The translations under genes and the position numbers were made by a program. Source: Xylophilus ampelinus (GTDB lineage Bacteria > Pseudomonadota > Gammaproteobacteria > Burkholderiales > Burkholderiaceae_C). Taken from it: a stretch of 64,000 nt of DNA. The notes beneath the pieces are model-generated. The model was given only the letters and a program-made list of their open reading frames with translations. It had not been told where the DNA came from and did no database searches. Of this stretch, positions 20,959 to 39,382 are shown piece after piece; the stretch's first letter is position 1; each line of letters begins with the position of its first letter. The DNA lies in assembly GCF_003217575.1 (NCBI RefSeq), contig NZ_QJTC01000008.1, positions 62,001 to 126,000 of the forward strand, written 5' to 3'.

Positions 20959-21696
20959 ATGATCCTCATTCCTGCGATCGACCTGAAAGACGGTCACTGC
21001 GTCCGCCTGAAACAGGGCGACATGGACCAATCGACCACTTTCGGCGAAGACCCGGCCGCGATGGCGCTGAAATGGGTGGAGCAGGGTGCGCGGCGCCTGC
21101 ATCTGGTGGATCTGAACGGCGCCTTCGCCGGCAAGCCGCAGAACTACGCGGCGATCAAGTCGATCCTGAAGGCCGTGGGCGACGACATCCCGGTGCAGCT
21201 CGGCGGCGGCATCCGCGACCTGGACACGATCGAGAAGTACATCGACGGCGGCCTGCGCTACGTGATCATCGGCACCGCGGCGGTCAAGAACCCGGGCTTC
21301 CTGAAGGACGCCTGCAGCGCCTTCGGCGGCCACATCATCGTGGGCCTGGACGCGAAGGACGGCAAGGTCGCTACCGACGGCTGGAGCAAGCTCACCGGGC
21401 ACGAGGTGGTCGACCTGGCCAAGAAGTTCGAGGACTGGGGCGTCGAGTCGATCATCTACACCGACATCGGCCGCGACGGGATGCTCTCCGGTATCAATAT
21501 CGACGCGACTGTCACGCTGGCCCAGGCGCTGACGATCCCGGTGATCGCGTCGGGCGGCCTGTCGAACATGGCCGATATCGAGGGCCTCTGCGCGGTCGAG
21601 GCGGAGGGTGTCGAGGGCGTCATCTGCGGCCGCGCGATCTACTCGGGCGACCTCGACTTCGCCGCGGCGCAGGCCCGCGCCGACGAATGGGCCTGA
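20959..21696 (+). CDS. hisA: ProFAR isomerase
   Basis: A 245-residue (beta/alpha)8 isomerase that opens the ring of ProFAR in the fourth step of histidine synthesis. Landmarks are the N-terminal [14 protein letters not shown] with the catalytic Asp, VQLGGGIRD, and the second half [12 protein letters not shown] and IASGGL. It is separated from hisH by 122 bp. Here it is the last gene of the first his block; hisF, normally next, is 17.7 kb away beyond the Pel region. Confidence 0.95.
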
Positions 21697-21754: not shown

Positions 21755-23008
21755 TCAGCAGGCCGTAGGCGCGACGCCCCGGTTGACGGCCGAGACGGTT
21801 TCCAGGAGCTGCGTCCAGTAGGCGGGCAGTGCCTTCCACGGGTCACCCACGCCGGTCTTGGGATTGAACTTCAGATTGGTCATGTACACCGGCCCGGCGT
21901 TGAACCGCGCCGTGGCGGCCGCGGCGACGGCGCGCTGCATCGCCGCACAGTTCTCGCCGTAGACCAGCGCCGCCTGACGGCTGTTGGCCTGCAGGTACAG
22001 CCAGGCATTGCCCTGGCGCGGGTCGTAGCGGGTGTAGGCGGTGCCGCGGTCCTCGAAGGTGACGAGGGTGTCGGCCACCCCCGCATACACCGCGTCGGGC
22101 ACGGTACCGGGATTGCCGATCACCTTCGGGCTCGGGTCGCGGGCCTTGATGTAGCGATAGATCTCTTGGTAGAACGCCAGCCGTTCCGGGTCGGACGCCA
22201 TCTCGTCCAGAAAGAATCCGCCGATCAGCGTGCGGCCGTACAGCGCCAGGTACTGGTCGATGTTGGCCTTGACCGCGTCGAGCGAGCGGGAGCCGGTGCC
22301 GTAGCCGGTGTAGACATAGCCCACCGTCCTGCCACCCACCGCGGCGAACTGCGCGAGCGCCCGCAGGTAGTCCGGGTCGGCGGTGGTGAAGATGCCGTTG
22401 TTCGGGTTCATGATCGCGGTGACGGCCAGCGTCGGATGGGCGGCGGCGCCGGCGGTCATCGTCGCCCAGTGGGTCGTGTCTGAGGCAGAGAAGTAGGCGG
22501 GAACCAGGATTTCGAGGGGCGCGGGTGTCGGCCGGGCGTACACCGTTCGCACCGCACTGACCGTCTGTCCGCCGGCCTGCACCGTCGCCGTGATCTCTTG
22601 GCGGCCCGGTGCGGTGGCGGTGAACGCAGTGGTGGCCAGGCCCGCCGACGTGGTGGGAAGCACCGGCAGCCACTGGGCCGATGGCCCACCGAAGCGCACC
22701 ACGGTACCGTCGATCGCCGCCGCGCCGTCGATCTTCAGCCGGACCGTGACGGCGGCCGCCGTGCCGACGTTCAGCACTTCCTGGTCGGCCGGGGCGGTGA
22801 AGGCCAGGGACAGCACCGGGAGCTTGGCCCTGGTGGCCTGGGTGCTGACGGTGCTGACGGTGATGTCGGTCTCGCCTGCCGCAGGGCTGCTGGCGGAGGT
22901 CGCGGTGGTGCTGCCGTCCCCGCCCCCGCCCCCGCCCCCGCCGCAGCCCGCCACGAAAGCCGTCATGGCCAGAACACCGAGGCGGGAGAGTGGTCGGAAG
23001 GGCTGCAT
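21755..23008 (-). CDS. Spherulin-4-like (GH135-like) glycosidase lipoprotein, paralogue B
   Basis: A 417-residue predicted lipoprotein: signal peptide with lipobox FVAGC (Cys22), an eight-glycine run, a Thr/Ser-rich linker, an Ig-like domain (about residues 65-158, GRQEITATVQAGG) and a C-terminal domain from about 163 that resembles spherulation-specific family 4. Family-type motifs are LVPAYFS, AIMNPNNGIF, GYVYTGYGTGSRS, GGFFLDEMAS (Asp268, Glu269) and LVTFE (Glu319). In fungal Sph3 (GH135, endo-alpha-1,4-N-acetylgalactosaminidase) an adjacent Asp-Glu and a later Glu are the key acidic residues. It is a close paralogue of the next gene. Inferred role: cleavage of Pel polymer in the periplasm or at the cell surface. 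Confidence 0.72.
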   Translation of the reverse strand: MQPFRPLSRLGVLAMTAFVAGCGGGGGGGGDGSTTATSASSPAAGETDITVSTVSTQATRAKLPVLSLAFTAPADQEVLNVGTAAAVTVRLKIDGAAAIDGTVVRFGGPSAQWLPVLPTTSAGLATTAFTATAPGRQEITATVQAGGQTVSAVRTVYARPTPAPLEILVPAYFSASDTTHWATMTAGAAAHPTLAVTAIMNPNNGIFTTADPDYLRALAQFAAVGGRTVGYVYTGYGTGSRSLDAVKANIDQYLALYGRTLIGGFFLDEMASDPERLAFYQEIYRYIKARDPSPKVIGNPGTVPDAVYAGVADTLVTFEDRGTAYTRYDPRQGNAWLYLQANSRQAALVYGENCAAMQRAVAAAATARFNAGPVYMTNLKFNPKTGVGDPWKALPAYWTQLLETVSAVNRGVAPTAC

Positions 23009-23182
23009 GGTGAGGAACTCCGCAAAAAAATCGGGTGATAGGTATCTTGTTGACAGTTCGCAGGCCCGGCGAGGCCCTCGGTCCGATCTGCCGACGGCGG
23101 TTTATACCCGTATTTTAAATTTCTCGCATCGCCATGGTGCACGGGTTGCGCCCTGCGGTCGTTCGACCACCTGCCCTGGGGA

Positions 23183-24367
23183 TCAGCAGGCCGGCACCGC
23201 CCCGCCGCGGTTGATTGCCGCGACCGTGTCGAGCATCTGCGGCCAGTAGCTCGGCAAGGTGGCCCACGGATTGCCGGCACCGGTCACAGGGTTGTACTGC
23301 AGGTCGGTCACGTACAGCGGACCGGCGTTGAAGCGCGCGGTGGCGGCGGCCCGTACGGCGATCTGCATCGCTGTGCAGGTGGGCGTGCTGTGGACGAGGG
23401 CGCTTTGGCGGCTGTTGGCGTACTGGTAGAGCCAGCCCTGGCCGCTGCGCGGGTCGTAGTCGGTAAAGGCGGCGGCGCTGTTCTCGAAGGTCACCAGGAC
23501 GTCGGCGACCGCGGCGTAGGCCGGGTCGGGAAAGGTGCCCGGGTTGCCGATCACCCGCAGGCCCGCGTCCTTGGCCTTGATGTAGCTGTAGATCTCGCGG
23601 TAGAAATCCAGCCGGTTGGCGGCGGAGGCCATTTCGTCGAGGAAGAAGCCGCCGATCAACGCGCGGCCGTACAGCGCCAGGTAGTTGTCGATGTTCGCCT
23701 TGATCGACGCCATCGACCGCGATCCGGTGCCGTAGCCGGTGTAGACGTAGCCGACCGTCCGGCCGCCGGCCGCGGACAGCTGCGTCAGCACCCGGGTGTA
23801 GTCGGCGCTGGCGGTGGTGAAGATGCCGTTGTCGGGGTTCATGATGGCGGTTACCGCCACGCCGGGATGGGCCGCTGCGCCGGCGACCAGCGTGTTCCAG
23901 TGGACGGTGGTGGTCGGCGAGAAGTACGCCGGCACCAACAGCTCCAGCGGCGCCGGTGCGGGCCGCAGGTACACCACCCGCACCGCGTTGGCCGTTTGGC
24001 CGCCGATCTGGACCGATGCGGTGATCTCCTGCCTGCCCGGTACCGCGGCGCTGAACGTCGCGGTCGCCACGCCCGCCTGGGTGGCGGGGCTTGCCGGCGC
24101 GAAACTGCCCGAGGACGCGGCGAAGCGCACCGCGGTGCCGTCGGCCGGCACCGCGCCGTCGACCGTCACCCGGGCGTTCACGCTGACGGGGTTGCCCATC
24201 TCGAAGATCGCCTGGTCGCCCGGCGCGCCGATGGTGACGGTGACGACCGGCGCGGCGACGGGCGTGCCGCCGCTGCCACCGCCTCCGCCCCCTCCGCACG
24301 CCGCCACCAGCGCGGCCAGGGCCAGGTTCAGCCACCGAGGGAGTGCGCGCAGGGTAGGTGTCTTCAT
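23183..24367 (-). CDS. Spherulin-4-like (GH135-like) glycosidase lipoprotein, paralogue A
   Basis: A 394-residue predicted lipoprotein beginning 57 bp after the pelG stop on the same strand, so it could be the eighth gene of the pel operon. Lipobox LVAAC (Cys24), poly-Gly run, Ig-like domain (about 40-135) and a spherulin-4-like catalytic domain (about 142-394) with LVPAYFS, AIMNPDNGIF, GYVYTGYGTGS, GGFFLDEMAS (Asp244, Glu245) and LVTFE (Glu295). Gly after the lipid-modified Cys, rather than Asp, predicts outer-membrane sorting. About two thirds of positions match paralogue B in the catalytic part by eye. Pel is an alpha-1,4 GalNAc-rich polymer, so a GH135-type hydrolase here suggests Pel processing or dispersal. 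Activity is inferred from family and position only. Confidence 0.75.
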   Translation of the reverse strand: MKTPTLRALPRWLNLALAALVAACGGGGGGGSGGTPVAAPVVTVTIGAPGDQAIFEMGNPVSVNARVTVDGAVPADGTAVRFAASSGSFAPASPATQAGVATATFSAAVPGRQEITASVQIGGQTANAVRVVYLRPAPAPLELLVPAYFSPTTTVHWNTLVAGAAAHPGVAVTAIMNPDNGIFTTASADYTRVLTQLSAAGGRTVGYVYTGYGTGSRSMASIKANIDNYLALYGRALIGGFFLDEMASAANRLDFYREIYSYIKAKDAGLRVIGNPGTFPDPAYAAVADVLVTFENSAAAFTDYDPRSGQGWLYQYANSRQSALVHSTPTCTAMQIAVRAAATARFNAGPLYVTDLQYNPVTGAGNPWATLPSYWPQMLDTVAAINRGGAVPAC

Positions 24368-24424: not shown

Positions 24425-25798
24425 CTACTGGAGCATGAAGGTCTCGTACTCCAGCCGGTTGAGCTGGCGCGAGAGCAGGTACATGCCGGTGCACAGCGTG
24501 AGCAGCGTCGACAGCGCGAAGCCGTAACCGTAGAGTGCAGCCCCGGCATGCAGGGTGAAGCCGGTGAACACGATGTTGAGCAGCACGAACTGCAGGCACA
24601 GGACCAGCACGATGCGCCGCTGGTCGAGGTAGAAGAACACGTTCAGGATCGCCATCAGCCCCACCTGCAGGCCGGCGCCGATCACCTGTACGTGCAGCAG
24701 CGGCAAGTACAGCCGCGAAATGCCCAGCACGTCGAGCAGGCCCGGCCCGGCGACGAAGGTGACCAGCACCGCCAGTGTCTGGATCTTGCCGATCTCGCCC
24801 AGGCCTTGCTGGAGCGAATAGACCATCTCGTCGCGCATCGCCTCGATGTATTCCAGCGAGCCGCCGCTGCGCACCGCGTCGTAGAACTTGTCGTAGTACT
24901 CGACGAAGTCGGTCTCGATACGGACCAGGAACACCGCCATGCCCGGGATGATCGACAGGTAGGCCAGGAACACCGGCAGATCGTAGATGATCGACGCGCG
25001 CAGGCCGCCGATGATGCTCTGGGAGGTCGGCGTGAAGTACCAGAACATGAACTTGTCGGCCCAGATGCCGAAGTTGTAGAGGAACCCCACCGCCACGAGC
25101 GACGGATAGAGCATTCGGCGCTGCGCGAAGTCGAATGCGATCAGCTTGCCCTTGGGGTTGAACTCCTGCACCACCAGCACCCACATACCCGCCAGCAGCA
25201 GGTAGTGGCCCAGCACGAAACCCGCCAGCAGCCCCTCCAGCCCCCAGGGCCGCAGCAGCAGCGAGCTGACGACGATGACTGCATAGGCCAGGCCGAACAG
25301 CGCCACGATGACCTTGTAGCGCTTCATGCCCGAGAGCAGAACCGTCAGCACCCAGACGTCGCACGTCAGCGCGAAGCCGGCCAGCATCAGCATCCGGTAG
25401 GCCAGCCCCAGGTCGGGCAGCACCACGAAGAGGGCCAGCGTGCCCAGCACGCCCGAGGCGAGCGTCACCACCAGCAGCAGGCCGTGCAGGTTCGGCAGGA
25501 TCAGGTCGCGGCGCTTCTCGAAGAGCCGGTCCGACACGAAGCGGGTGAAGGCTAACTGCACCAGCCCGGTCAGGATCAGGCTGCCCGCCACCAGGTAGGT
25601 CACCGATGTCTGGAACTGGGTCACCAGCAAGCCCGGCACCACCACGCTGGCGCTGAAGATACCGATCAGCAGAATGCCGACGATCGAGAACACCCACGGC
25701 CCGGACCCGATCACGCCGGCATAGGCGTACGCCTGCACCAGGCTGGTCAGCGTGTCCTTGCGCAGCACGCGCCGCAGCTCGAATCCGATGCCGGCCAT
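24425..25798 (-). CDS. pelG: Pel polysaccharide inner-membrane transporter PelG
   Basis: A 457-residue polytopic membrane protein with about 12 hydrophobic segments. The N-terminus MAGIGFELRRVLRKDTL and the FNPKGKLIAFD region are typical of PelG, which forms the Pel synthase/transport complex with PelD, PelE and PelF. Its ATG at 25798 overlaps the pelF stop (ATGA). Last canonical gene of the pel operon. Confidence 0.93.
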   Translation of the reverse strand: MAGIGFELRRVLRKDTLTSLVQAYAYAGVIGSGPWVFSIVGILLIGIFSASVVVPGLLVTQFQTSVTYLVAGSLILTGLVQLAFTRFVSDRLFEKRRDLILPNLHGLLLVVTLASGVLGTLALFVVLPDLGLAYRMLMLAGFALTCDVWVLTVLLSGMKRYKVIVALFGLAYAVIVVSSLLLRPWGLEGLLAGFVLGHYLLLAGMWVLVVQEFNPKGKLIAFDFAQRRMLYPSLVAVGFLYNFGIWADKFMFWYFTPTSQSIIGGLRASIIYDLPVFLAYLSIIPGMAVFLVRIETDFVEYYDKFYDAVRSGGSLEYIEAMRDEMVYSLQQGLGEIGKIQTLAVLVTFVAGPGLLDVLGISRLYLPLLHVQVIGAGLQVGLMAILNVFFYLDQRRIVLVLCLQFVLLNIVFTGFTLHAGAALYGYGFALSTLLTLCTGMYLLSRQLNRLEYETFMLQ

Positions 25799-27330
25799 CA
25801 GCGCGCTCCCTCGGTTTTCTGGAATGCCGTCTCGTACACCCGGCGGTAGCGGTCGAACATCATCTTGTCGGTGTAGTAGCGCTCGACCCGCGCGATCGCC
25901 GCGCGGCTGGCGGCGTGCCAGGCGTCGGAATCCTTGAGCAGCGACAGCGACGCGTCGGCGAGTCGCTGCGGGTCGGCGATCGGTACCACCTTGCCCGAGG
26001 CCCCCAGCGCACGGTCTTCTGCGTCCAGTCCTTCGATCAGCTGGCGGCACGATCCGACGTCGGTGGACACCGTCGGCACGCCAGCCGCATAGCCTTCGAG
26101 TATCACAAGCGGCAAGGCCTCGCTGATCGAGGAGAGAATCACCAGACCGATGCGCGGCATCAGGTCTTCCACCCGCTGGAAGCCGAGGAAGCGGATGTTG
26201 TTCTCCAGCCCCAGGCTGCGCACGAGGTTCGTGCATTCCTGGGCGTAGGCCGGGTCTTCCTCGGTGGGCCCGGCGAGCCAGCCTTCTGCCAGCGGCAGCT
26301 GGTTGACCACCCGGCGCATCGCGCGGATGAAGGTCTTGATGTCCTTGATAGGCACCACGCGGCCGATCAGGCAGAGCACCTGCGGCACCTCGACCGGCCG
26401 CTGGCCGCGCAGCGGGGCGAAGCGCCCCAGGTTGATGCCGTTCGGTATGTTGAAGGTGCGCGCTGCGTCGGCGCCGTCGGTCACCTGGCGCAGCCGGTTG
26501 GTTTCGTAGAGCGCGATGATCGGATCGGCCGCTGCATAGCAGTAGTAGCCGAGCCATTCGAAGAAGCGGATCCACATCTGGCGGAAGTACGACAGCTCGG
26601 TCGGGTCGCGCTGGAAGATGTTACGGTTGTCGCGGATCCACTCGCTCTTGAACAGATCGATCTTGCGTTCCTTGGTGTATATGCCGTGCTCCGATAGGAT
26701 CAGCGGCACGCCCCGCATGTGCTGCACCAGGCCGCCCAGGTAGCCGGCGTAGCCGGTCGAGGCGCAGTGCACCATCCGCACCGGCAGCATCTGCTGCGCC
26801 ACGCGGGCCAGTGTCCAGAGCGGCTGGTACATGATCCGCACCGTCCAGAAGTAATCGACGAACGACGGGTCGGTACAGTGGTCGCGGTAGCCCTGGCAGA
26901 TGATCTCCCAGGCCCGCTCGCTGTAGAGGAAATCTTCCAGAGGCAGCTGGCCGCCCGGCTGCATCTGCACTGTCAGTTCGCGGAAGGCGGCCATCGTCTC
27001 GGCGCTGCGGTCGCCGGTGCGAAACGAATCGACCAGGGTGTGCACCATGTCGAGCGCGGCCCGGTTGCCCTTGCGCCGGGCCGGCATGCCGCGCGCCCCT
27101 AGGTGGTCGTAGAGGTAGTGCTCCTCGAAATGCACCACGTTGGCGGGCAGCTCGTACTTGAAGTTCGAATAATCCTCCTGACGGCTGCCCAGGAAGATGA
27201 TCGCGAATGTGTACTCCGGGTATCCCCGAATGATCTGGTTGATCCAGCTCGATACGCCCCCGCTGACGTACGGAAAGGTGCCTTCCAGGATGAGCGCTAT
27301 GTCGGCCTGACCGGCCTTGGGATGGCTCAT
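25798..27330 (-). CDS. pelF: Pel glycosyltransferase PelF
   Basis: A 510-residue cytosolic GT4-family glycosyltransferase that polymerises Pel from a nucleotide sugar (UDP-GalNAc-type donor). Visible are the N-terminal DIALILEGTFPYVSGGVSSW, LILSEHGIYTKERKID, NGINLGRFAPLR, LIGRVVPIKDIKTFI, and the EX7E motif in SSISEALPLVILEGYAAG. Start ATG 27330 (MSHPKAG) overlaps the pelE stop by four bases; the 17-residue upstream extension has no similarity. Confidence 0.94.
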   Translation of the reverse strand: MSHPKAGQADIALILEGTFPYVSGGVSSWINQIIRGYPEYTFAIIFLGSRQEDYSNFKYELPANVVHFEEHYLYDHLGARGMPARRKGNRAALDMVHTLVDSFRTGDRSAETMAAFRELTVQMQPGGQLPLEDFLYSERAWEIICQGYRDHCTDPSFVDYFWTVRIMYQPLWTLARVAQQMLPVRMVHCASTGYAGYLGGLVQHMRGVPLILSEHGIYTKERKIDLFKSEWIRDNRNIFQRDPTELSYFRQMWIRFFEWLGYYCYAAADPIIALYETNRLRQVTDGADAARTFNIPNGINLGRFAPLRGQRPVEVPQVLCLIGRVVPIKDIKTFIRAMRRVVNQLPLAEGWLAGPTEEDPAYAQECTNLVRSLGLENNIRFLGFQRVEDLMPRIGLVILSSISEALPLVILEGYAAGVPTVSTDVGSCRQLIEGLDAEDRALGASGKVVPIADPQRLADASLSLLKDSDAWHAASRAAIARVERYYTDKMMFDRYRRVYETAFQKTEGAR

Positions 27331-28340
27331 CGCGGCTCCCAGTAGTCGAGGATCGGCCGCAGGCGGGGCAGGGCGCGCCATTGGGCCAGCTCATGCATCA
27401 GCCGCCGGGTCTGTTCGAAATCGCGCCGCTGGAAGCACAGTTCGGCCTGGTAGGGCAGCAGCCGAGTGGCCGGAAGGCCGAGCGCACGGGCCAGCGCATA
27501 GGCGGCATCGGCGGCCTGTTGCTGGCCCAGCAGGTGCAGCAGTCGGCCGCGCCGCAGGTTGAGCTGCGGATGCTCGGGCCGGTGCTTCAGCACCTGTTCG
27601 CAGTAGCGCAGCGATTCTTTGATCGCATGGTCGCGCAGATCGCCCTGCACCAGCTCCTGGTAAACCAGCTCCCAGTACAGATCGGACAGGCGGTAGCTGG
27701 ATTCTGTGGCGAGCGGCCCGGGCGTGTCGCCCTCGGTTTCCCGCGCCTGGCGCAGCGCATCCAGCTCGCTGTCGATCGTGCGGTTGATGCGCTTTTCCAG
27801 TGTGTCGAGCATGCCGTAGGCAAGCAGCCGCAGATCCTCGCTCGGGTCGCTCAGCACGGTGCGCAGCAGCGGCGAGGCGATACGGCCGGAGACGCGCTGC
27901 AGCGCCACCATCGCCCGCATGCGGGTTTGCATCGGCGCCTGGCTGTTCCCCAGGAAGGAGCGCAGCCCCGATTGGCGGAAGCTGCCCTGTATGCGCTGGT
28001 GGCGGTCGAACTCGGGCAGGCGCAGAGATTCGAAGGCGTCCTGCACGGTCGGACTGCGGTAGACCCGCAGCACGACCACCGCCAGCGCCACCCCGAAGAA
28101 GCCTGCGACCGGCACCGTATAGCTGAAGGCCGCCATCAATGCCAGCACCGGCGTGCGCGGCTTGGCCTGGGCGCCCGAGAGCAGGGGCAACAGGAATAGC
28201 GACAGCATGACGCACGCGACCCCATGCACCGTCAGGTAGCTGAGCAGGGCGGCGTCGGAGTGGCCCTGCAGCAGGGCCGGCCCGCTCCAGGCGCCGATCT
28301 CCAGCAAAAGCGCCGAAATGCCGATCTTGAGGTTAAGCAT
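27327..28340 (-). CDS. pelE: Pel inner-membrane protein PelE
   Basis: A 337-residue protein with two N-terminal hydrophobic segments (about residues 30-55 and 65-92) followed by a cytoplasmic helical, TPR-like region (SYRLSDLYWELVYQELV, LKHRPEHPQLNLRRGRLLHLLGQ). PelE bridges PelD and PelF in the synthase complex. It overlaps pelD by 8 bp and pelF by 4 bp. Confidence 0.88.
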   Translation of the reverse strand: MLNLKIGISALLLEIGAWSGPALLQGHSDAALLSYLTVHGVACVMLSLFLLPLLSGAQAKPRTPVLALMAAFSYTVPVAGFFGVALAVVVLRVYRSPTVQDAFESLRLPEFDRHQRIQGSFRQSGLRSFLGNSQAPMQTRMRAMVALQRVSGRIASPLLRTVLSDPSEDLRLLAYGMLDTLEKRINRTIDSELDALRQARETEGDTPGPLATESSYRLSDLYWELVYQELVQGDLRDHAIKESLRYCEQVLKHRPEHPQLNLRRGRLLHLLGQQQAADAAYALARALGLPATRLLPYQAELCFQRRDFEQTRRLMHELAQWRALPRLRPILDYWEPR

Positions 28341-29727
28341 GGGCCATTCCGTGGAGCCGCCGCAGCACCGTCAGGGGGTCGCCGTCGAGCGGCACGATAT
28401 GCGGGAACACGCCGGATTCGGCGAGCGGCTGGCCGGTCTTCTGGTCCGACCACAGCTCCAGCCGGTTGATGTAGCCCTCGGCGGTGGCGCTGTCGCCGAG
28501 CGGCATCAGCATCGCGAGCACGTGTCGGCTCTCGCCCCGGATCAGCCAGCCTTCGTCCAGTTCGCGCTTCAGGCGCTGGATCTGGCCGGGCAGGCCCGCG
28601 TCGATCGCCCGCGGCAGGAATTCGAGCGCGACGATCACGCTCGGTACCTGGGCGGTGTCGCGGATGTGCGCCAGCCGCTGCGATTCGAACGCGAAGTTCG
28701 CCGGGCAATCGGGCAGCTGCGCCTGAATCGGCTCGGCCAGGGTCTGCATCGCCAGGCCGTCGGTGTAGTAGCCGAGCAGCAGGTTGATCGTCTGCAGGTT
28801 CTCGTCCTGCAGCGAGAAAAAGGGCATGTCTTCGATTACCAGCAGACCGTAGATCTCGCCGCCCAGGTCGAGCAGCGGCGCCACCGCCAGGTACTGGGTC
28901 TGCTGCTGCCCGGCCAGCGCCTGGCTGACGTGGCAGAGCTTGCGCGTCTCCAGCGCCTGCTGCACCAGCGGGTCGTAGGGATCGATCGCCGCGCCGGCGC
29001 CGAGCCTGGCGATCGGTTCGGGCTCGATGCGCTCGTCGTCGGCCGCGTACAGAGTGGCCGACTCCAGCTGGCAGTACTGCGCCAGCAGCCGCAGCAGCGT
29101 CTCGGCGCCCTGCACCACGTTCTGGTCGGGGCCGCCCACGCTCTGCAGCGTCGAGAGCGCGTCGCGCATCGACATCGGCCGGCCGATCAGCTCCTGCTCC
29201 AGCCGGTCGTGCGACAGCCGCAGCAGGTAGTACTGCCGCACCAGGTGCTCCAGCCGCTGGTCGAGGTAGACCTGCACGTTCTCCGCTCGGCGGGTGCGCG
29301 CCTGCCACAGGCTCGAGAACTCGCCCACCAGCATCACCAGGATCAGGCCGCCCAGGAAATAGACCTGGGGAAAGTCGTCGTAGCCTCCCGGGTTCAGACC
29401 CAGCCAGCCGATCGCCAGCACGCTGGCGGCGCCCAGCCCCGCCAGCGGCCCGTAGCGCAGGGCGACGATGACCGGCGCCAGCCACGACCACGGGAACGGC
29501 GCCATCACCCACAGCGGATCCTGAGGCTCCAGCACGACGCCGAGCGCCAGCGCGATCAGCGGGAGCACCAGCGTTTCGACCAGCATGACCGGTGCGCGCG
29601 CGTCCGGATCGGCCAGCTTGCCGAGCAGGTTGGACGGCAGGTGGTTGACCTTCTTCGACTCGGCCGCGATCGGCGTCGGTTTGATCGCGCGGCGGCGTGC
29701 GGTGGGCGTGGTCGTCTCGGGGGCCAT
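28333..29727 (-). CDS. pelD: c-di-GMP receptor PelD
   Basis: A 464-residue inner-membrane protein: four transmembrane segments (about 50-140), a short coiled region, a GAF domain (about 185-330) and a degenerate GGDEF-like domain at the C-terminus. The c-di-GMP-binding RxxD motif of PelD is kept as RELD at residues 388-391, with further arginines (397, 401) where a second contact is expected. Pel synthesis here should therefore be switched on post-translationally by c-di-GMP, as in Pseudomonas. Confidence 0.92.
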   Translation of the reverse strand: MAPETTTPTARRRAIKPTPIAAESKKVNHLPSNLLGKLADPDARAPVMLVETLVLPLIALALGVVLEPQDPLWVMAPFPWSWLAPVIVALRYGPLAGLGAASVLAIGWLGLNPGGYDDFPQVYFLGGLILVMLVGEFSSLWQARTRRAENVQVYLDQRLEHLVRQYYLLRLSHDRLEQELIGRPMSMRDALSTLQSVGGPDQNVVQGAETLLRLLAQYCQLESATLYAADDERIEPEPIARLGAGAAIDPYDPLVQQALETRKLCHVSQALAGQQQTQYLAVAPLLDLGGEIYGLLVIEDMPFFSLQDENLQTINLLLGYYTDGLAMQTLAEPIQAQLPDCPANFAFESQRLAHIRDTAQVPSVIVALEFLPRAIDAGLPGQIQRLKRELDEGWLIRGESRHVLAMLMPLGDSATAEGYINRLELWSDQKTGQPLAESGVFPHIVPLDGDPLTVLRRLHGMAHA

Positions 29728-29734
29728 GGCGGGA

Positions 29735-30286
29735 TCAGCGCGCCCGCGCCAGGCCGGCGTCGAGCAAATCGCGGATCAGCTTCTGCGCAACGCCCGAGAG
29801 CGCCTCGCGGCTCCAGCCGCTCTTGCCGCCGGTGCCGCTCCAGAGTGCGTCACCGGAGGCCACGTCGAGAATCTGCAGCGTCACGCCGACGGCCGGTTCG
29901 CCGTCGACGCCGACCTTGTAGCGCCATTCGTCGACCGCGCCGGTCAGGGCGTAACTGGCCTTCTGATCGCGGGCCCAGGCCAGCACCTCCTGCTGGCGAT
30001 TGGCATCGCCCGCGTCGAACAGTGCTTCCTGCTGGGTGCTGGTGGGGTAGCGCTGTATGCGTCCGACGCCGCGGGTTTGCAGCAGGGCCTGCGCGATCGC
30101 CTCGGCCCGGTTGCCGGCGAGCGGCGTCTCGGTGTGGTTGGCGAAGGGCAGCACGACCCAGGTGGCGTTGCGCTCCAGCTCGGGCGGCCGGCCGCGGTCG
30201 ATGGTGGAACAGGCGCCGAGCAGCAGGGCGAGGCTGCCGACGACGACGGCGTGCCGACGCTGCAGCAGAAAGCGGTGGTGGGGCAT
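29735..30286 (-). CDS. pelC: Pel outer-membrane lipoprotein PelC
   Basis: A 183-residue lipoprotein with lipobox LLGAC (Cys26). Family landmarks are TWVVLPFANHTETPLAGNRAEAIAQALL and YALTGAVDEWRYKVGVDGEPAVGVTLQI. PelC forms a dodecameric ring at the outer membrane beneath the PelB barrel. Start ATG 30286 has a good GAGAGGA ribosome-binding site immediately upstream. It lies 23 bp after pelB and 7 bp before pelD. Confidence 0.92.
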   Translation of the reverse strand: MPHHRFLLQRRHAVVVGSLALLLGACSTIDRGRPPELERNATWVVLPFANHTETPLAGNRAEAIAQALLQTRGVGRIQRYPTSTQQEALFDAGDANRQQEVLAWARDQKASYALTGAVDEWRYKVGVDGEPAVGVTLQILDVASGDALWSGTGGKSGWSREALSGVAQKLIRDLLDAGLARAR

Positions 30287-30309: not shown

Positions 30310-33300
30310 TCAGAAATGGAGACGGTAGGTGAGCAGCATGCTGCGGGTCAGGCCCCGGACCTGCGGGCCCGACTTGCCGACGCCCCAGCTCAGGCCCAGG
30401 TGGTCGGCGCCGAGCACGCTGCCGGCCACGCCCGTGCGCAGCTCGTAGCCGGGGCCGAGGACGCTGTGCCAGGTGCGGCTCAGGGTGGCGAAGGGCCGGG
30501 CGGCACGGGTGTACTCCTGCTCGTAGCGCATGTTGGTGGAGACCTGCAGCCCGTAGAAGCTGAAGCTGCCGGGAAGGAAATAGTCCTGGCCCACGGTGCT
30601 CGTGCTCGGCGGCACGATGCGGGTGAAGGCCAGGTCGTTCGGGCCCAGGCCCGCCAGGTCGCGGCGCGAGAAGTTGTGGTGCGACCAGAACGCGCCGAAC
30701 TCGATCGACGGTGTTTCCTGCCGGTAGGTGTGGCTGTAGTTGAGCCGGGTGTGCTGGCCGTTGCCGAGCGTCGCGCCGGTCTGCAGGCTGTAGGCCTCGT
30801 CCGCATAACCCAAGGTGAACTGGTCCTGGCGGGTGGCCTGGTAGCGCAGGGCGGCACCGGCCCGGCGCTTCTTGCCGGCGATGCGCAGGGCCAGGCTTTC
30901 CTGGCTGGGCAGGTCGGTGCCCAGGTCCAGCGTCAGCATCAGGCGATTGTCGATCCGCTGCTGGTGCTCGATCTGCAACGGGTTGTAGGCGCCTAGGCTT
31001 TCGCGGCGGCCTGCGCGCAGCATCGTGGTGCCGTCGTTGTGGCGCCAGTTGAGCTTCATGTCGAAGGCGCGCTCGTCGGGCGGGTTGACGATCACCAGCG
31101 CATCGGTGGCCCGGCGGCGGATGCTCGCGAACTCCAGGTCCAGCGACAGCCGCGGGTCGATCGCGATGTGGAGCACCGTGTCGACCTCGTCCTCGTCCAT
31201 ACCGCCCAGGCGCTGCAGCTTCAGGCCGCCGCCCACCGTGTCGCTGAAGGCGAGCAGGTTCTCGGTGAGCTGCAGGTGCAGCGGCTGGTCGTCGTGCTGG
31301 TCCTGTTGTGCCTCGAAGGCGGCGGTTTGCGCCAGGCGGATGTCGTCCACCGCCCGGGCGGCGTTGACCCGGTCGTAGCGGGGCAGCCGCTCGTCGAAAG
31401 CCTGCAGCAGTTGGCCGGTGGCGGACTTGTCGTCCTCGGCCAGCGCGACGGTGATCTCTGCCCACAGCGGCCGGTTGCTCCGTTGGCCCTGACTGCGGGC
31501 GTACTGGTGCCGTAGGAAGCCCCGCTCGGCGGTGTATTCGCCGGCGTCCTGCAGCCAGCCGATGGCGGTCTCGGCCGCGGCGTTGGAGAAGTCGCCGCGT
31601 CCGTCGCGGTCGACCCGCAGCAGTTCGCGCAGCACGTCCTGCGCCGGGTCGCCCGGGCGCTGGGTCATGATCAGCCGGGTGCGGGCGATGCGCCGCGTCT
31701 GGTCCAGTCCCTCGTCGGTCAGCCAGCGGGCGCGTGCTTCGGCGGCCGACAGGCGGGTGCCGCCGTCGCCCGTGCGTGCCGACTGCCATTCGCGCGACAG
31801 CAGTTCGCGCCGCAGCCGCCAGGCACGGTCGGTCTGCTGATTCTGGTCGAGCGCGTCGGCGTAGTTCATCAGCCAGAGGAAATCGCCCTGGTGGGCCTTC
31901 AGGTGAGGCGTGAGGTAACGGTCGAGCGATATCTGCGGCAAGGACAGCGCCTGGTAGGCGGCCGCCAGCGCACCGTGTATATCCTCGGTGCGGGCCCAGA
32001 CCCGTTCCTGCGTGGTCAGCAAAGTGCGCAGCGACACCGCGTCGTTGCTGTCGATGAACAACCACAGCAGCGCCTGCCGCATCTCGGACGAATCCGGACT
32101 CTGTCGCAGCCCTGCTTCGAAATAGCGGCGGGCCTCGGGCAGGTTGCCGGTGTTCTGGTAGTAGCTGCCGGCCAGCCGCAGGAATTCCGGCAGCTGCCAG
32201 AGCGTGGCGGCGGCGCGGCGGGCGGCCTGCCGGCTCGCGTCCAGGCGACCGATGAGCCGCCCGACCTCGTCCCAGCGGTTGCGGCTGGAGTAGATCGACA
32301 GCGCACCGACCATGTGGCGCGGCTCTTCGAGCCGTTCCCAGGCCAGCACCGACACCCGCGCTGCTTCGAGCGGCTGGTCGTTTTCCAGGAGGCGCACCAG
32401 CGCGTCGTAGTCCGAGCTGTCGGTGTCCTTGCCTTCTACCAGCCGGCGGTAGGCCTGCACGGCCAAATCGTTGCGCTGGCGGCTTTCGGCCAGCTGGGCG
32501 GTCAGGCGCCAGTAGTCGTTCTGGTCCGCGCCCACGCTCGGCTGCTGCTGGGCGGCTTCCAGCCAGCGCAAGCCCTCGTCGGGCCGACCGTGGGTCAGGG
32601 CCAGCACGGCGGCGCGCATCGCCCTGGCCTGGGTCACCTGGCTCTTGTCGGACAGCAGGCGGCGCCAGCTGTCGAGCGCCAGGGTCGGCTGTCCGGCGCG
32701 TTCGGCCAAGTTGGCGAGCAGCTCCACCGCCGACGGCGCCTTGGCATGGAGCTTCAGGTAGTCGAGCGCGGGCTGCGGCTCGCCGATGCGCTCGTAGGCC
32801 TCGACCAGGGCGCGTATCAGCGCGAGGTCTTCGGGGCGGTCGCGCAACTGGTGGCGCAGACCTTCGACCAGTGCGCGGTCGTCGAACTGGCCGGGCGCCA
32901 GCCGCAGCACCGACTGCCAAGCCTCGTCGCGGTCGGTCTTGCGGGCGATGTAGAGCCAGCTTTCCAGCGCCGACGCGGACCGCAGGGTCCAGTCGGACAC
33001 GCGGGCCAGGCGCTCGCGCCACGCCAGGTCCTGCGGAAGGTTCTGCACCGCGACGTTCGCCAGCGACCAGGCGTCGTCGAGCTTGCGGTTCTCGACGAAG
33101 ACCTCGTAGCCCAGGGTGTAGAGCTTGTCGTCGAAGGGCAGGCCGGGCACCGCGCCCGGCCGCGGGGCAGGGGGCGGCGCATCCGCCGCGGGCACGGCGG
33201 ATGCCGCGGGGCGGGGCACCTCCTGCGCCATGCGGCGCTGCTGCCAGGTGCCGGCGTCGGCCACCGCCATCGCGGGCGGCAGCATCAGGTGGGCGCCGTC

Positions 33301-34299
33301 GTCATAGCCGTACTGCGCGGGCGACGCGTCGCCCGCTGCGCCGTGCAGCGGGCGCAGCAATGCGCCGACGGGCGCCATGCTGCCGATCACGATCGCCGTG
33401 GTGTCGGGCATCTGCCGCATCAGCGAGATGCGCAGCAGGCGGCGCACGTAGCGGTCGGCCACCGCCGGTTTACCCGCAGCGCGCGCCAGGTTGGTGATCA
33501 TCAGCAGGGTCTGCGCATCGTCCGAGAGCGGACCCAGTTCGCGCTCGGCCAACGCCAGGGCCGCCACCGGCTGGTTGCCCGACTGCAGAGACTTCACCGC
33601 GGCCATGTAGTAGGCCTTGGCCTGCTGCGGATCGGGCGTCGCCTGGCGCGCCAGCAGGTAGAGCTCGGCGCATGCGGCGTAGTCGGAGGTGCCCAGCGCC
33701 TCCTTTGCGGCCTGTTCGTAGAGTTGCGCGGCTTCGCGCGGATCGGTCGCTTCCGCAGCCAGTTGGCGGGTCAGCACCACGCCGACCACGCGGTCTTGGA
33801 AGTCGGCCGTGCGGCGCGCCAGCAGTATCTGGCGCTCGATCGGCCAGCGCTCCCGTGCCAGCGTTTTCAGCTGGAGCTTCAGATCGTCGCGCAGGTCCTT
33901 GCGGCGCTCGGCGTCTTTCTCGGGGGTGCGCTGGTAGTCGGCATATGTCAGGTCCCAGAGGCTCCAGAGCGCATCGCGGTGCAAAGCCGGATCGGACGAG
34001 TCGAGTGCCGGCTGCAGCGTCGCGCGCGCGTCGGCCATTTCGCCCATCGCGATCTGGCGCTGGGCCAGCAGCAGCCGCAGGCGCGGGTTGTCCGGGTCGC
34101 TGTGCAGAAGGTTGTTCAGGTAGGCCACGGACAGGGCTACGTCGGCCGTGTCGGAGAGCCGCAGCTCCAGCGCCTGCTTCGGATAGAGCAGCCACAGGCC
34201 TCCCCCCACCATGCTGGCCAGCAGGGCGATGAGCCAGGGGGGTGCCAGTACCGGCCGCTCAACGGGCTGGGCACTGGAGCTGGATTTGTGCTGCAGCAT
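30310..34299 (-). CDS. pelB: Pel outer-membrane exporter PelB (TPR scaffold plus beta-barrel)
   Basis: A 1329-residue protein: an N-terminal membrane anchor (about residues 20-40, APPWLIALLASMVGGGLWLLY), a long helical TPR region that recruits PelA, and a C-terminal 16-strand-type beta-barrel (from about 1000) ending in the outer-membrane signature LTYRLHF with terminal Phe. It exports Pel and guides the polymer to PelA. It is longer than the roughly 1190-residue Pseudomonas protein, with the extra length apparently in the TPR part (including a Pro/Ala-rich loop near 33140-33230). It overlaps the pelA stop by 41 bp. Confidence 0.93.
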   Translation of the reverse strand: MLQHKSSSSAQPVERPVLAPPWLIALLASMVGGGLWLLYPKQALELRLSDTADVALSVAYLNNLLHSDPDNPRLRLLLAQRQIAMGEMADARATLQPALDSSDPALHRDALWSLWDLTYADYQRTPEKDAERRKDLRDDLKLQLKTLARERWPIERQILLARRTADFQDRVVGVVLTRQLAAEATDPREAAQLYEQAAKEALGTSDYAACAELYLLARQATPDPQQAKAYYMAAVKSLQSGNQPVAALALAERELGPLSDDAQTLLMITNLARAAGKPAVADRYVRRLLRISLMRQMPDTTAIVIGSMAPVGALLRPLHGAAGDASPAQYGYDDGAHLMLPPAMAVADAGTWQQRRMAQEVPRPAASAVPAADAPPPAPRPGAVPGLPFDDKLYTLGYEVFVENRKLDDAWSLANVAVQNLPQDLAWRERLARVSDWTLRSASALESWLYIARKTDRDEAWQSVLRLAPGQFDDRALVEGLRHQLRDRPEDLALIRALVEAYERIGEPQPALDYLKLHAKAPSAVELLANLAERAGQPTLALDSWRRLLSDKSQVTQARAMRAAVLALTHGRPDEGLRWLEAAQQQPSVGADQNDYWRLTAQLAESRQRNDLAVQAYRRLVEGKDTDSSDYDALVRLLENDQPLEAARVSVLAWERLEEPRHMVGALSIYSSRNRWDEVGRLIGRLDASRQAARRAAATLWQLPEFLRLAGSYYQNTGNLPEARRYFEAGLRQSPDSSEMRQALLWLFIDSNDAVSLRTLLTTQERVWARTEDIHGALAAAYQALSLPQISLDRYLTPHLKAHQGDFLWLMNYADALDQNQQTDRAWRLRRELLSREWQSARTGDGGTRLSAAEARARWLTDEGLDQTRRIARTRLIMTQRPGDPAQDVLRELLRVDRDGRGDFSNAAAETAIGWLQDAGEYTAERGFLRHQYARSQGQRSNRPLWAEITVALAEDDKSATGQLLQAFDERLPRYDRVNAARAVDDIRLAQTAAFEAQQDQHDDQPLHLQLTENLLAFSDTVGGGLKLQRLGGMDEDEVDTVLHIAIDPRLSLDLEFASIRRRATDALVIVNPPDERAFDMKLNWRHNDGTTMLRAGRRESLGAYNPLQIEHQQRIDNRLMLTLDLGTDLPSQESLALRIAGKKRRAGAALRYQATRQDQFTLGYADEAYSLQTGATLGNGQHTRLNYSHTYRQETPSIEFGAFWSHHNFSRRDLAGLGPNDLAFTRIVPPSTSTVGQDYFLPGSFSFYGLQVSTNMRYEQEYTRAARPFATLSRTWHSVLGPGYELRTGVAGSVLGADHLGLSWGVGKSGPQVRGLTRSMLLTYRLHF

Positions 34300-37144
34300 C
34301 GGAGAGGCGGAATTGTTGGACAGCCGGGTCGGCCGGGGAAGCTGCGCGGATCGGGGTCAGCAAACGCTGGTTGGCGCGCACCTGGCAGTTCCCGGCATTG
34401 GCCAGGCTGAAGGCCAGCGGTGCGTAGCCCCTCAGGGCGAAATCGGTGCGGCCCTGGTCGCGCACCGACCATTCGGCCAGGCGGGCGTTGGCGTCCGACA
34501 GATACGGGCCCCGCGGCACGGCGGGCGCTGCGGCGTCGCCGGCGCGCATCTGCAGCCAGGCGGCGGCGCCGGTCAGGTGCACGTAGCTGCCGCCCTCGGC
34601 CGCGGCGGTGTAGCCGGCCACGCCCTGGCTGGCCTGCGGCTGCGGCGTGCCGAGCGCGGCCGGCATGCGCAGGGTGCGCAGATCGCCGTTTCCGCGCACC
34701 CGCCAGCCGTCGCCGTCGCGGGCCACGGCGTAGGTGTGGAAGTCCTGCACCTTGCGGATGAATTCCGATGCGTAGACCGGGTGCAGCGGCTGTGCCAGGG
34801 CCCAGTCGTACACCTTGCGCAGCGCGTTCAGGCCGGCGCGTTTGCTGGCGGAGTACACGTGGTAGTAGATGTCCACCGGCTTGATGCGGCGGGGCGTGCC
34901 GGTCATCTCGAAGCTCTGCAGCACCTGCTCGTAGCCGTAGTACGGGCCCTTCCACAGGTTGGTGTAGATGTTCTCGTTGGTGATCGGCGCGTACACCTGC
35001 AGCAGTCCGCCTTTCTGGATGCCGTGCGGCCCGATCGCGGTGAGCGACGGGTTGGTGCGGGTGATCAATGTGTCGCCGCCGTTCATGTTGAGCAAGCCGG
35101 CCTTGGCGGTGATCTCCAGCGCCTCGGCGTTGGGCGCGGTGTCGCCCGACCACAGCAGGATCTTGACTTTCTTGCCGGGCGGCGCGAGCCGGCTGTTGAT
35201 GTAGTCGGTCGAGCCCACGATCTCGCGACGGAGGTCCATCGTGTAGCCCGGCACCTCCAGGCTCATCGCCGCCTCGGCGTTGTCGCTGAAGGTGCCGTGG
35301 CGCACGCTGCGGTCCCAGAGGAACGGATGCGAATAAGTGTGGCTGGCGATCTCGACGTGCGGCAGCGCGAACATGCGGCGCGCCACGTCTTCCAGCTCCC
35401 TGCTCGTCTCGGGGTGCAGGCCGTGCGGCGCGATCTCGGCCTCGATCACCGACATGGTCTGCGGCACGGTGCGGTACTTCTCGAAGATTTCCTTCAGCAG
35501 CACCTGCCCGGCGTCGGGGCTGCCGGGCAGCTCGGCGCGCGACGGGAAGCCGTCGCCGTCGACATGCGAGAACAGCAGCCGGCGGCCGTTCTCGGTGGTG
35601 ACGTCGGGCACCGGCATCGGCGGCAGGCGCAACGCCTGCGCCAGGAAGGCGAACGGGTCGACCACCCAGCGGGCGTAGCCGGTGCCCGGCACCTCGACCA
35701 CCACGAAGGGGTCTATCAGGAAGCCGCCCCAGGGCATCAGCGCGCCACCCAGGACCGACTGGTTGCGCTGGTCCTTGAATTCGACCAGCGGGCGCGCCGC
35801 CTGCACGGGCGCGCCATCGCGCAACACCAGCTCGAACTGCGCACGGAGGGCGGGCTCCAGCGCAGTCTCGAAGCCCATCATCGGGTCGCGTGCTACCGGC
35901 TGCTGGATGCCGCGGGGCGCCGCGTTGTTGGCCTGGATGCCCAGCGCCTCGACCAGGGACCGGTCGAGCGCCGAGCCGAAGTTGCTCAGCACCGCCACCG
36001 GCATCTGCTCGGCCAGGCGCGCCTGCAGCCACTGCTGCACCGGCTTGACGCGGTTCTCGGGCAGGAAGCCCGAGAACCAGGTCACGACGCCGGCGTAGCG
36101 GTCCTGGTACACCTCGGCGGGCAACGCCTCGCGCACGTCCACGTAGTCGACCACATAGCCCAGATGGTTCAACGGCATCTGCAAAAAGCGGTGGGCCGGC
36201 GTGTAGTTGAGTGCGGGCGTTTCGCCGCCGTTGTAGAGCACAAGCACCCGCCGCGGCACCGGCTCGACGGTGCCGATGCCGACCGTCTTCACATGGCCGT
36301 CGGTCACCCAGGGGATGAATCCCAGCGCCTTGATCTGCTCGGCGGTCGAGCGGGTCAGCGCACGGTCCTGCGGCGCGACGTAGTCGATCGCCAGGATCGG
36401 CAGGCCGTCGCGCTCGCGGATCGTGCGGAGCTGGCCCAGCAGCCATTCGCGGTCCTCGGGCTTCACCGGCTCGTAGCGCTGGGTGCCGGCATTCCAGCCT
36501 CGGAAGAGCGATTCAACCGCCACCATCTTCACCTTGTCCTTGACCCGCGGCACGATCTCGAAGCCGCGGTTGAGGATCAGCTGGATGCCAGGATAGCGCC
36601 GGTTCAACAGCTCGATCACCCGGACGACGCCGGCTTGCTGCGCAGCCTCGTCGAACTGCGTGGCCAGCCGGTAGGAGTCGAGTGTGTCGAGGAAGAAGCC
36701 GCGATACCCCTTCTGCCAGAGCGGGCCCACCACCTTGGTGGCGAAGAACTCGGGCCATTCGGCCGGCGTCTGGTCGACCACGTCGGAGTTCCAGTCGCCG
36801 TTGCGCGCCATCTTCCAGGCCGCGGGAATCTCGGGGTAGTAGGGCCGGGTGGCCTGCACCTCGGCCACCGACACGTAGGCATAGAGTTCGCTGCCGGTTT
36901 TGCGGTAGGCGACCGGGTCCTGGCCGTGGTCGGGTTCGACCACCACGATGTCGAAGAGCTTCAGTTCCGGCAGGGCCGCTGTCGGCCCGTAGTGCAGGGC
37001 CACGGCCGGAGCCGCGGTCGCCCACAGCGGCAGGGCGTAGAAAAAGGCAACAAACAGAGAGCGGAGTTTGTACAACACGACGAAAGGAAATGAGCGGATG
37101 AAATAAGGCGGCAGACTTCGATACGCTACGTCGCTTGTGCACAC
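34259..37144 (-). CDS. pelA: Pel hydrolase/deacetylase PelA
   Basis: A bifunctional periplasmic enzyme, 961 residues by the longest reading. Signal-like hydrophobic segment at about 28-45; GH166 hydrolase domain from about 50 (HYGP, LKLFDIVVVEPDH) with a candidate catalytic Glu211 in MVAVESLF; then a carbohydrate deacetylase domain with SHVDGDGF (Asp529, Asp531) and the SHTYSH metal site (His602, His606). PelA partly deacetylates Pel, making it cationic, and can cleave it. Start uncertain: GTG 37144 gives a long n-region; GTG 37078 would put the signal peptide at the very N-terminus. First gene of pelABCDEFG and divergent from galE. Confidence 0.93.
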   Translation of the reverse strand: MCTSDVAYRSLPPYFIRSFPFVVLYKLRSLFVAFFYALPLWATAAPAVALHYGPTAALPELKLFDIVVVEPDHGQDPVAYRKTGSELYAYVSVAEVQATRPYYPEIPAAWKMARNGDWNSDVVDQTPAEWPEFFATKVVGPLWQKGYRGFFLDTLDSYRLATQFDEAAQQAGVVRVIELLNRRYPGIQLILNRGFEIVPRVKDKVKMVAVESLFRGWNAGTQRYEPVKPEDREWLLGQLRTIRERDGLPILAIDYVAPQDRALTRSTAEQIKALGFIPWVTDGHVKTVGIGTVEPVPRRVLVLYNGGETPALNYTPAHRFLQMPLNHLGYVVDYVDVREALPAEVYQDRYAGVVTWFSGFLPENRVKPVQQWLQARLAEQMPVAVLSNFGSALDRSLVEALGIQANNAAPRGIQQPVARDPMMGFETALEPALRAQFELVLRDGAPVQAARPLVEFKDQRNQSVLGGALMPWGGFLIDPFVVVEVPGTGYARWVVDPFAFLAQALRLPPMPVPDVTTENGRRLLFSHVDGDGFPSRAELPGSPDAGQVLLKEIFEKYRTVPQTMSVIEAEIAPHGLHPETSRELEDVARRMFALPHVEIASHTYSHPFLWDRSVRHGTFSDNAEAAMSLEVPGYTMDLRREIVGSTDYINSRLAPPGKKVKILLWSGDTAPNAEALEITAKAGLLNMNGGDTLITRTNPSLTAIGPHGIQKGGLLQVYAPITNENIYTNLWKGPYYGYEQVLQSFEMTGTPRRIKPVDIYYHVYSASKRAGLNALRKVYDWALAQPLHPVYASEFIRKVQDFHTYAVARDGDGWRVRGNGDLRTLRMPAALGTPQPQASQGVAGYTAAAEGGSYVHLTGAAAWLQMRAGDAAAPAVPRGPYLSDANARLAEWSVRDQGRTDFALRGYAPLAFSLANAGNCQVRANQRLLTPIRAASPADPAVQQFRLSDAAAQIQLQCPAR

Positions 37145-37375
37145 CTACACCACCATCCCAAGCGATGCATACGGATGCTCAGTTTACCTTTTTGTTACCA
37201 AAAACCATAAGCCAATTCGAAAGGCCCTCCGCCGGCGGTTCTCCTGCTTTAATTTCACCCATTTGAATATGTCGGCCACTATAGAGCTGACTGGAGAATG
37301 TGCAAGCCTGGCTGCCGGGTACCGCTGGCAGCACACCCGGCGCTGCCGCCCGGCTTCATTTCCGAAGGAAAAAAC
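37145..37375. promoter_or_regulatory. Divergent pelA/galE intergenic regulatory region
   Basis: 231 bp of markedly lower GC than its surroundings, between divergently transcribed pelA and galE. It must hold the pel promoter(s). A near-perfect 16-bp palindrome (TTTTTGTTACCAAAAA, 37189-37204, 14 of 16 positions symmetric) lies about 45 bp upstream of the longest pelA start and is a candidate operator. TATAGA at 37280-37285 could be part of a galE promoter. GAAGGA at 37364-37369 is the galE ribosome-binding site. I could not assign firm -35/-10 pairs. Confidence 0.5.
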
Positions 37376-38383: not shown

Positions 38384-38464
38384 CTTTCTGCGGTCGCGGC
38401 GCGGGGGAGCCGCGGTCGGACGACGGCCGCCGGCGGCGCGAAGTGCGGCTCCTACAATCGCCGT

Positions 38465-39328: not shown

Positions 39329-39382
39329 CCCGCGGGCGCCCTGCGCGCCGCACACACCTTCTTCCTTTTCCGCGGATTTTCC

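Follow-up and report, generated by a model that had tools for sequence, protein, structure and literature searches.

A 64,000-nucleotide stretch of the Xylophilus ampelinus genome (contig NZ_QJTC01000008.1, positions 62,001 to 126,000; hereafter, the window) contains a complete pelABCDEFG operon that runs on the minus strand from position ~37123 (pelA) to 24425 (the end of pelG) and is followed by two genes for GH135/Spherulin4 lipoproteins, here called sphA and sphB. The gap between pelG and sphA is 57 bp, and that between sphA and sphB is 174 bp; another 58 bp separate sphB from the convergent hisA gene, where the pel-sph cluster ends. A first-pass annotation, made from the letters of this DNA, had described both lipoprotein reading frames and the start of the first one 57 bp after pelG on the same strand; the two frames are present and intact, and the spacing is confirmed. 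The features of the two proteins are as follows:

23183..24367, minus strand: sphA, GH135/Spherulin4 lipoprotein, first gene after pelG (intact open reading frame, 394 amino acids)
24296..24367, minus strand: lipoprotein signal of SphA, ending at Cys24 (sequence ALVAAC, Gly at +2, poly-Gly linker next)
23963..24244, minus strand: Ig-like (Big_1-type) beta-sandwich of SphA, residues 42-135 (models; Big_1 below the curated cut-off)
23210..23944, minus strand: catalytic barrel of SphA, residues 142-386 (PF12138, model, and Sph3 superposition; D244/E245/E295)
21755..23008, minus strand: sphB, second GH135/Spherulin4 lipoprotein (intact open reading frame, 417 amino acids; D268/E269/E319)
21794..22513, minus strand: PF12138 domain of SphB, residues 166-405 (Pfam match)

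Domain structure of SphA and SphB

Both proteins share the same architecture: (i) a lipoprotein signal with the lipobox cysteine at residue 24 in SphA and 22 in SphB, (ii) a glycine-rich linker, (iii) an N-terminal domain, and (iv) a C-terminal GH135 domain. The family assignment had been proposed from the motifs AYFS, MNP.NGIF, GYVYTGYG, FLDE, and VTFE, all of which were found, and profile search bears it out, since PF12138 (curated cut-off 30.2 bits) matches both proteins over its full length: SphA with E 4.6e-50 and 170.8 bits (profile positions 2-239 of 239), SphB with E 1.2e-46 and 159.6 bits (1-239 of 239). No NCBIfam model matches either protein. Among solved structures, sequence search returned a sole strong match, the Aspergillus enzyme Sph3 (PDB 5c5g; E 3.7e-16 for SphA and 2.3e-12 for SphB).

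The full model of SphA, built from a 10-sequence alignment, has a predicted local distance difference test score (pLDDT) of 87.1 and superposes on Sph3 (5d6t) with Z 25.6 and a root-mean-square deviation of 2.5 over 231 aligned residues; among the matches listed, the next protein scores Z 16.3. Foldseek also recovers Sph3 (E 3.0e-15). The superposition covered the SphA model, and the likeness of SphB to Sph3 rests on sequence. The acidic residues D244/E245/E295 of SphA and D268/E269/E319 of SphB, correctly numbered in the first-pass annotation, align with the catalytic Asp166/Glu167/Glu222 of Sph3. These names are those of PMC10485009, and the numbering offset was inferred from the chain ranges of the structures; PMC12054363 prints Asp196 and Glu222, thus disagreeing about the first residue. 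The endo-galactosaminidases of GH191 and GH114, described in PMC12054363, are likewise barrels acting on the same polymer class, but the GH191 structures match the SphA model much more weakly than Sph3 does (Z 14.1 and 14.0). No GH166 entry appears among the 50 structural matches listed for this model, which excludes nothing. SphA and SphB thus share the family and the catalytic Asp-Glu-Glu with Sph3, and the SphA model shares its fold; they differ from Sph3 in sequence (~26% identity) and in being lipoproteins with an Ig-like domain encoded behind a pel operon. As PMC12054363 gives a bacterial origin for most enzymes of these families, bacterial GH135 as such was already known.

The N-terminal domain, described in the first-pass annotation as Ig-like in both proteins, is of this type in SphA according to models; for SphB, the Pfam scan matched no Ig family, although its N-terminal domain shares 51% identity with the SphA one. 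Modelled alone, the SphA domain reaches pLDDT 89.7, and its top fold matches are tied between a domain from the neck protein of phage Chi (Z 12.5) and the intimin segments D00-D0 (Z 12.1) and D0-D1 (Z 11.9), with beta-galactosidase domains matching at lower scores. The simplest reading of this model is a stalk; carbohydrate binding is possible. Outside the window, a regular expression detected a lipobox in 33 of 35 first copies and in all 9 second copies; the hit in L028 (a first copy) is spurious, that in L040 probably so, and L024 has a site visible by eye that the pattern missed. Glycine occupies position +2 in 31 of these 33 first copies and in 9/9 second copies. An Ig-like domain would not fit in at least three of the first copies (L003, L068, and L083).

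Xylophilus sp. Leaf220, a leaf isolate, is the closest named relative in our locus scan, and its SphA is 90% identical. Comparison with its orthologues (Nei-Gojobori method, own script) gave ratios of nonsynonymous to synonymous substitution rates of 0.22 for SphA and 0.23 for SphB, a sign of purifying selection. Chance open reading frames were therefore rejected, as each protein matches the family over its full length and looks to be under purifying selection.

The remaining genes of the cluster were assigned as follows:

34259..37123, minus strand: pelA, GH166-type hydrolase domain and deacetylase region (start codon provisional; 9cgy E 8.2e-195, 5tcb E 3e-42)
30310..34299, minus strand: pelB (PF24604, barrel, E 1.3e-93, and TPRs)
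29735..30286, minus strand: pelC (position and synteny by tblastn; lipobox in the sequence; LpoB match below cut-off)
28333..29727, minus strand: pelD (PelD_GGDEF E 9.6e-30, and GAF)
27327..28340, minus strand: pelE (position and synteny, with syntenic tblastn matches; own family match weak, TPR_16)
25798..27381, minus strand: pelF (NF038011, 796.7 bits)
24425..25798, minus strand: pelG (PF16933 E 3.5e-157)
20959..21696, plus strand: hisA, convergent neighbour (PF00977 E 3.7e-82)

PelA of the window aligns with the full-length PelA structure 9cgy, deacetylase region included. Between positions 21600 and 24600, we found neither terminator-like sites nor minus-strand promoter-like sites, a result that is uninformative given the 1.2 and 0.2 sites expected from shuffled sequences. 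Beyond pelA, a 980-residue minus-strand frame (37184-40126) without an NCBIfam match looks spurious in this high-G+C DNA.

Conserved linkage of GH135 genes to pel loci

To describe the genomic context of the family, GH135 was scored with the Pfam model, which was built without reference to pel, and PelF was counted at E <= 1e-60, a threshold at which some phylum-sample matches of ~440 bits may be false. Three overlapping samples were used, comprising 120 relatives, 399 genomes of the order, and 398 of the phylum. GH135 and PelF co-occur in all of them by Fisher tests that ignore ancestry: among the relatives, 11 genomes have GH135, 15 have PelF, and 8 have both (p 1e-6); the corresponding numbers are 12, 43, and 11 in the order sample (p 7e-11) and 9, 31, and 7 in the phylum sample (p 3e-7). 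After removal of the window's own genome and that of its congener, the p values are 4e-5, 5e-9, and 3e-5, respectively. Some of the copies in genomes lacking a PelF match have architectures of their own. Two such proteins (L007:1432-2337 and L008:1432-2292) end in PEP-CTERM-like tails, as judged by eye, and a third (L006:265-2340, genome G109) joins the GH135 domain to a long C-terminal part that looks metallophosphatase-like by eye.

The neighbourhood of GH135 genes was analyzed in 77 named loci, obtained by keeping the best 80 of 157 scan results. The gene immediately upstream on the same strand is pelG in 32 of the 77, which is a biased rate, because pel-linked copies were abundant in the alignment behind the scan patterns and only these best results were kept. 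Adjacency of pelG and GH135 was also seen by coordinates in genomes G000, G001, G010, G274, and G446, and a full pelA-pelG set with GH135 is present in L105, L106, and L107; L048 contains just the end of pelA. The first-pass annotation had viewed the tandem pair as an operon part. The link to pel is indeed conserved, but the pair is not the conserved unit: two tandem copies follow pelG in 9 of the 32 loci and a single copy in 23, although a few of these 23 contigs end shortly past the GH135 gene.

Two further kinds of linkage were found. In Paraburkholderia bryophila (L100), GH135 adjoins pelA head to head, and in Zoogloea (L103) it immediately precedes pelA, both genes having the same orientation. 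On the tree, every pelG-linked row belongs to one 76-row group (support 99), in which neither of these two copies is found. Thus, the linkage of GH135 to pel is conserved across genera and arose more than once, and GH135 is a genuine and conserved adjunct to the pel pathway that is most evident in Comamonadaceae. The remaining 45 loci, which lack an upstream pelG, come from 44 genomes; 29 of these genomes, those of L100 and L103 included, carry PelF. In Delftia, the GH135 gene lies at the junction with hisA (identified by eye), ~17 kb away from the pel operon, and may have stayed behind when pel moved; there (L053:9701-11894), it faces hisA in the convergent arrangement also seen in the window. 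In the Zoogloea locus (L103:4097-11912), the GH135-pelA start stands beside his and tat-like genes (by eye), so that pel is near his there too.

The tree was built from an alignment of 112 domain rows, 105 of them different, in which some genomes are present twice (for example, L019/L094, L017/L053, L016/L099, and L014/L062); L089 (too short), L004 and L013 (copies of the genes of L028), and L001 and L002 (the window's own) were left out. The first tree was a quick one; distant rows sit on long branches in it, its deep forks stay open, and deep placements are accordingly rough. Each Xylophilus copy has the other as its closest kin (support 100/98). In Paracidovorax and one Acidovorax, the copies fall in two separate clades, and a third tandem pair (L061) combines members of two other lineages. 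As we read the branching, second GH135 copies would have arisen at least three times. A single ancient tandem duplication was rejected, as the Xylophilus copies group together and the first copy of Paracidovorax falls elsewhere. The approximately unbiased (AU) test against a single first-copy clade gave p 0.02, with the caveats that this group was named after the first tree had been seen and that gene conversion could mimic the result. Judged from these sequences, the tandem of sphA and sphB is a local, recurrent elaboration of the commoner single-copy arrangement.

The catalytic Asp-Glu-Glu triad is kept in all 48 pel-linked rows. Among the 64 unlinked rows, it is kept in 51, the first Glu is replaced by Gln in one, and both glutamates are lost in 12. 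These 12 rows form one Acidovorax-type clade (L071-L082, support 97), all matching GH135, in which the Asp is kept and the two glutamates are replaced by Gly and by Ala, Thr, or Asn. This clade, which has no link to pel, may be a family of pseudoenzymes. Eight of its 12 host genomes have no PelF match, and the four that have one (G845, G852, G854, and G855) also carry a separate copy that is linked to pel and has the triad (L040, L061, L045, and L068, respectively, assigned by record name). Over copies L028-L104, intact triads were found 66 times with PelF and 7 times without it, and lost triads 4 and 8 times (p 5e-5, a value that takes no account of ancestry, the triad loss being one event on the tree).

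In the open-access literature, none of the titles and abstract openings listed described GH135 in a pel operon, and no characterised bacterial GH135 was found, most subscription papers being outside this search. The family is known, and its placement in pel operons is what was not found described.

Predicted role in the Pel pathway

The closest functional model is Sph3, which is encoded within the gene cluster for another polymer containing alpha-1,4-linked N-acetylgalactosamine (GalNAc), the fungal galactosaminogalactan (PMC10485009). Sph3 degraded re-N-acetylated Pel, and when it was compared with PelAh on native Pel, PelAh alone released small amounts of product (PMC9135694). Pel biofilms of Pseudomonas aeruginosa are disrupted by PelAH and not by Sph3, while Streptococcus intermedius produces a GalNAc-rich Pel, and its aggregates are disrupted by Sph3 (PMC12345266). 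These reports contradict the premise of the first-pass annotation that Sph3 disrupts Pel biofilms. Because of these substrate results, action on acetylated, GalNAc-rich Pel follows from membership in the family, and dispersal of mature Pel does not. Deacetylation by PelA is periplasmic and acts on a polymer that arrives acetylated (PMC12022489). A periplasm-facing GH135 lipoprotein would therefore find its favoured substrate in that compartment, and for this reason the function that we prefer is to clear acetylated Pel or to control its length.

In our reconstruction, SphA and SphB are probably membrane-anchored GH135 endo-alpha-1,4-N-acetylgalactosaminidases that serve the Pel pathway specifically, cutting Pel that is not yet deacetylated. 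They would be anchored in the outer membrane, with the Ig-like domain and the glycine linker serving as a stalk that keeps the barrel off the membrane, and would cut GalNAc-rich Pel that has passed the inner membrane un- or under-deacetylated by PelA. Such cutting would either remove stray or stalled polymer from the periplasm or control chain length. A model for such a role is the alginate lyase AlgL, which is encoded in a synthesis operon, cuts the polymer, and keeps the periplasm clear (PMC8829089), although AlgL is a lyase with another polymer and another fold. The hydrolase motifs of PelA are kept in the window and, by motif pattern search, in L103 and L105-L108. The GH135 enzymes thus add to the PelA hydrolase, and SphA and SphB would act beside the intact GH166 domain; for the same reason, GH135 as a stand-in for a dead PelA hydrolase was rejected. 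We consider it conceivable, although doubtful, that the two enzymes act as a quality check, destroying chains that escape deacetylation by PelA, so that just cationic Pel leaves the cell.

Of the claim that these proteins are dedicated Pel depolymerases, the GH135 family, the triad, the lipoprotein signal, and the link to pel are supported, and the dispersal of mature Pel does not follow from the family. A role as surface-exposed dispersal enzymes cutting mature Pel would fit the lipoprotein nature and stalk-like domain of SphA and the published effect of PelA-type hydrolase activity, which reduces adherent biofilm and yields secreted Pel (PMC9894940; for Bacillus cereus PelAH, PMC7112168). 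PelAH of B. cereus, a hydrolase of the same polymer class, is encoded by a separate accessory gene adjoining a pel operon (PMC7112168). SIR_1591 of S. intermedius is an extra hydrolase encoded in the pel operon that breaks Pel aggregates (PMC12345266). PelAH belongs to another family, and the window encodes an intact PelA alongside SphA and SphB, so a domain for cutting mature Pel is already present; SIR_1591 is described as having a barrel like those of beta-amylases and beta-galactosidases and a DUF4832 domain, with GH135 unmentioned in the available portion of that report. Given also the failure of Sph3 on native Pel and on P. aeruginosa biofilms, we hold dispersal to be unlikely. The Pel of S. 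intermedius raises another possibility, namely that a GalNAc-rich Pel variant is the final product and the GH135 enzymes are its ordinary hydrolases for length control or release. This explanation overlaps with cutting of not-yet-deacetylated Pel, and the two are not exclusive; yet the match of the window PelA to 9cgy with its deacetylase region leads one to expect deacetylated Pel, and we regard the variant as possible but far from favoured.

An incidental neighbourhood, with defensive or nutritional GH135 enzymes attacking fungal galactosaminogalactan, would agree with the substrate of the family in fungi (PMC10485009) and with the copies in PelF-less genomes, those with PEP-CTERM-like tails included. 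It is improbable in view of the co-occurrence with PelF, the conserved adjacency to pelG, the two further kinds of linkage outside the pelG group, and the triad loss in the unlinked clade. That SphA and SphB are pseudoenzymes tethering Pel to the envelope, as the loss of both catalytic glutamates in a related clade might suggest, is very improbable, since the triad is kept in both of them and in every other pel-linked row.

Several observations weigh against a dedicated role in cutting acetylated Pel. Genomes with GH135 but without a PelF match make up 3 of 11 among the relatives, 1 of 12 in the order sample, and 2 of 9 in the phylum sample, and therefore GH135 is not always tied to Pel; of the three phylum-sample genomes with GH135 that lie beyond the order, just G667 has PelF, as opposed to G616 and G719. 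Conversely, 32 of the 43 PelF genomes of the order sample have no GH135, and both the overlap of the samples and the disregard of ancestry lower the value of the tests. The PelA hydrolase motif of L100 was not matched by the strict pattern. The substrate specificity is borrowed from one distant fungal enzyme, and bacterial GH135 enzymes may accept galactosamine and cut native Pel. The activity and localisation given for SphA and SphB are predictions. The +2 rule of lipoprotein sorting stems from Escherichia coli, and the two proteins may be surface-exposed.

These findings bear on the open question of why polymer-making operons carry polymer-cutting enzymes. The pel operon of X. ampelinus combines two hydrolase families, GH166 in PelA and GH135 in SphA and SphB, whose relatives differ in tolerance for deacetylation: according to the published work available, the GH166 domain of PelA tolerates some deacetylated sugar, and Sph3 does not. 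This difference would let genetics separate the cutting of acetylated Pel from that of deacetylated Pel, with the natural triad-less relatives as a ready negative control. SphA and SphB are also candidate tools for typing and degrading GalNAc-rich Pel and fungal galactosaminogalactan. If the quality check were true, bacteria and moulds would each have recruited GH135 into separate gene clusters for alpha-1,4-galactosamine polymers.

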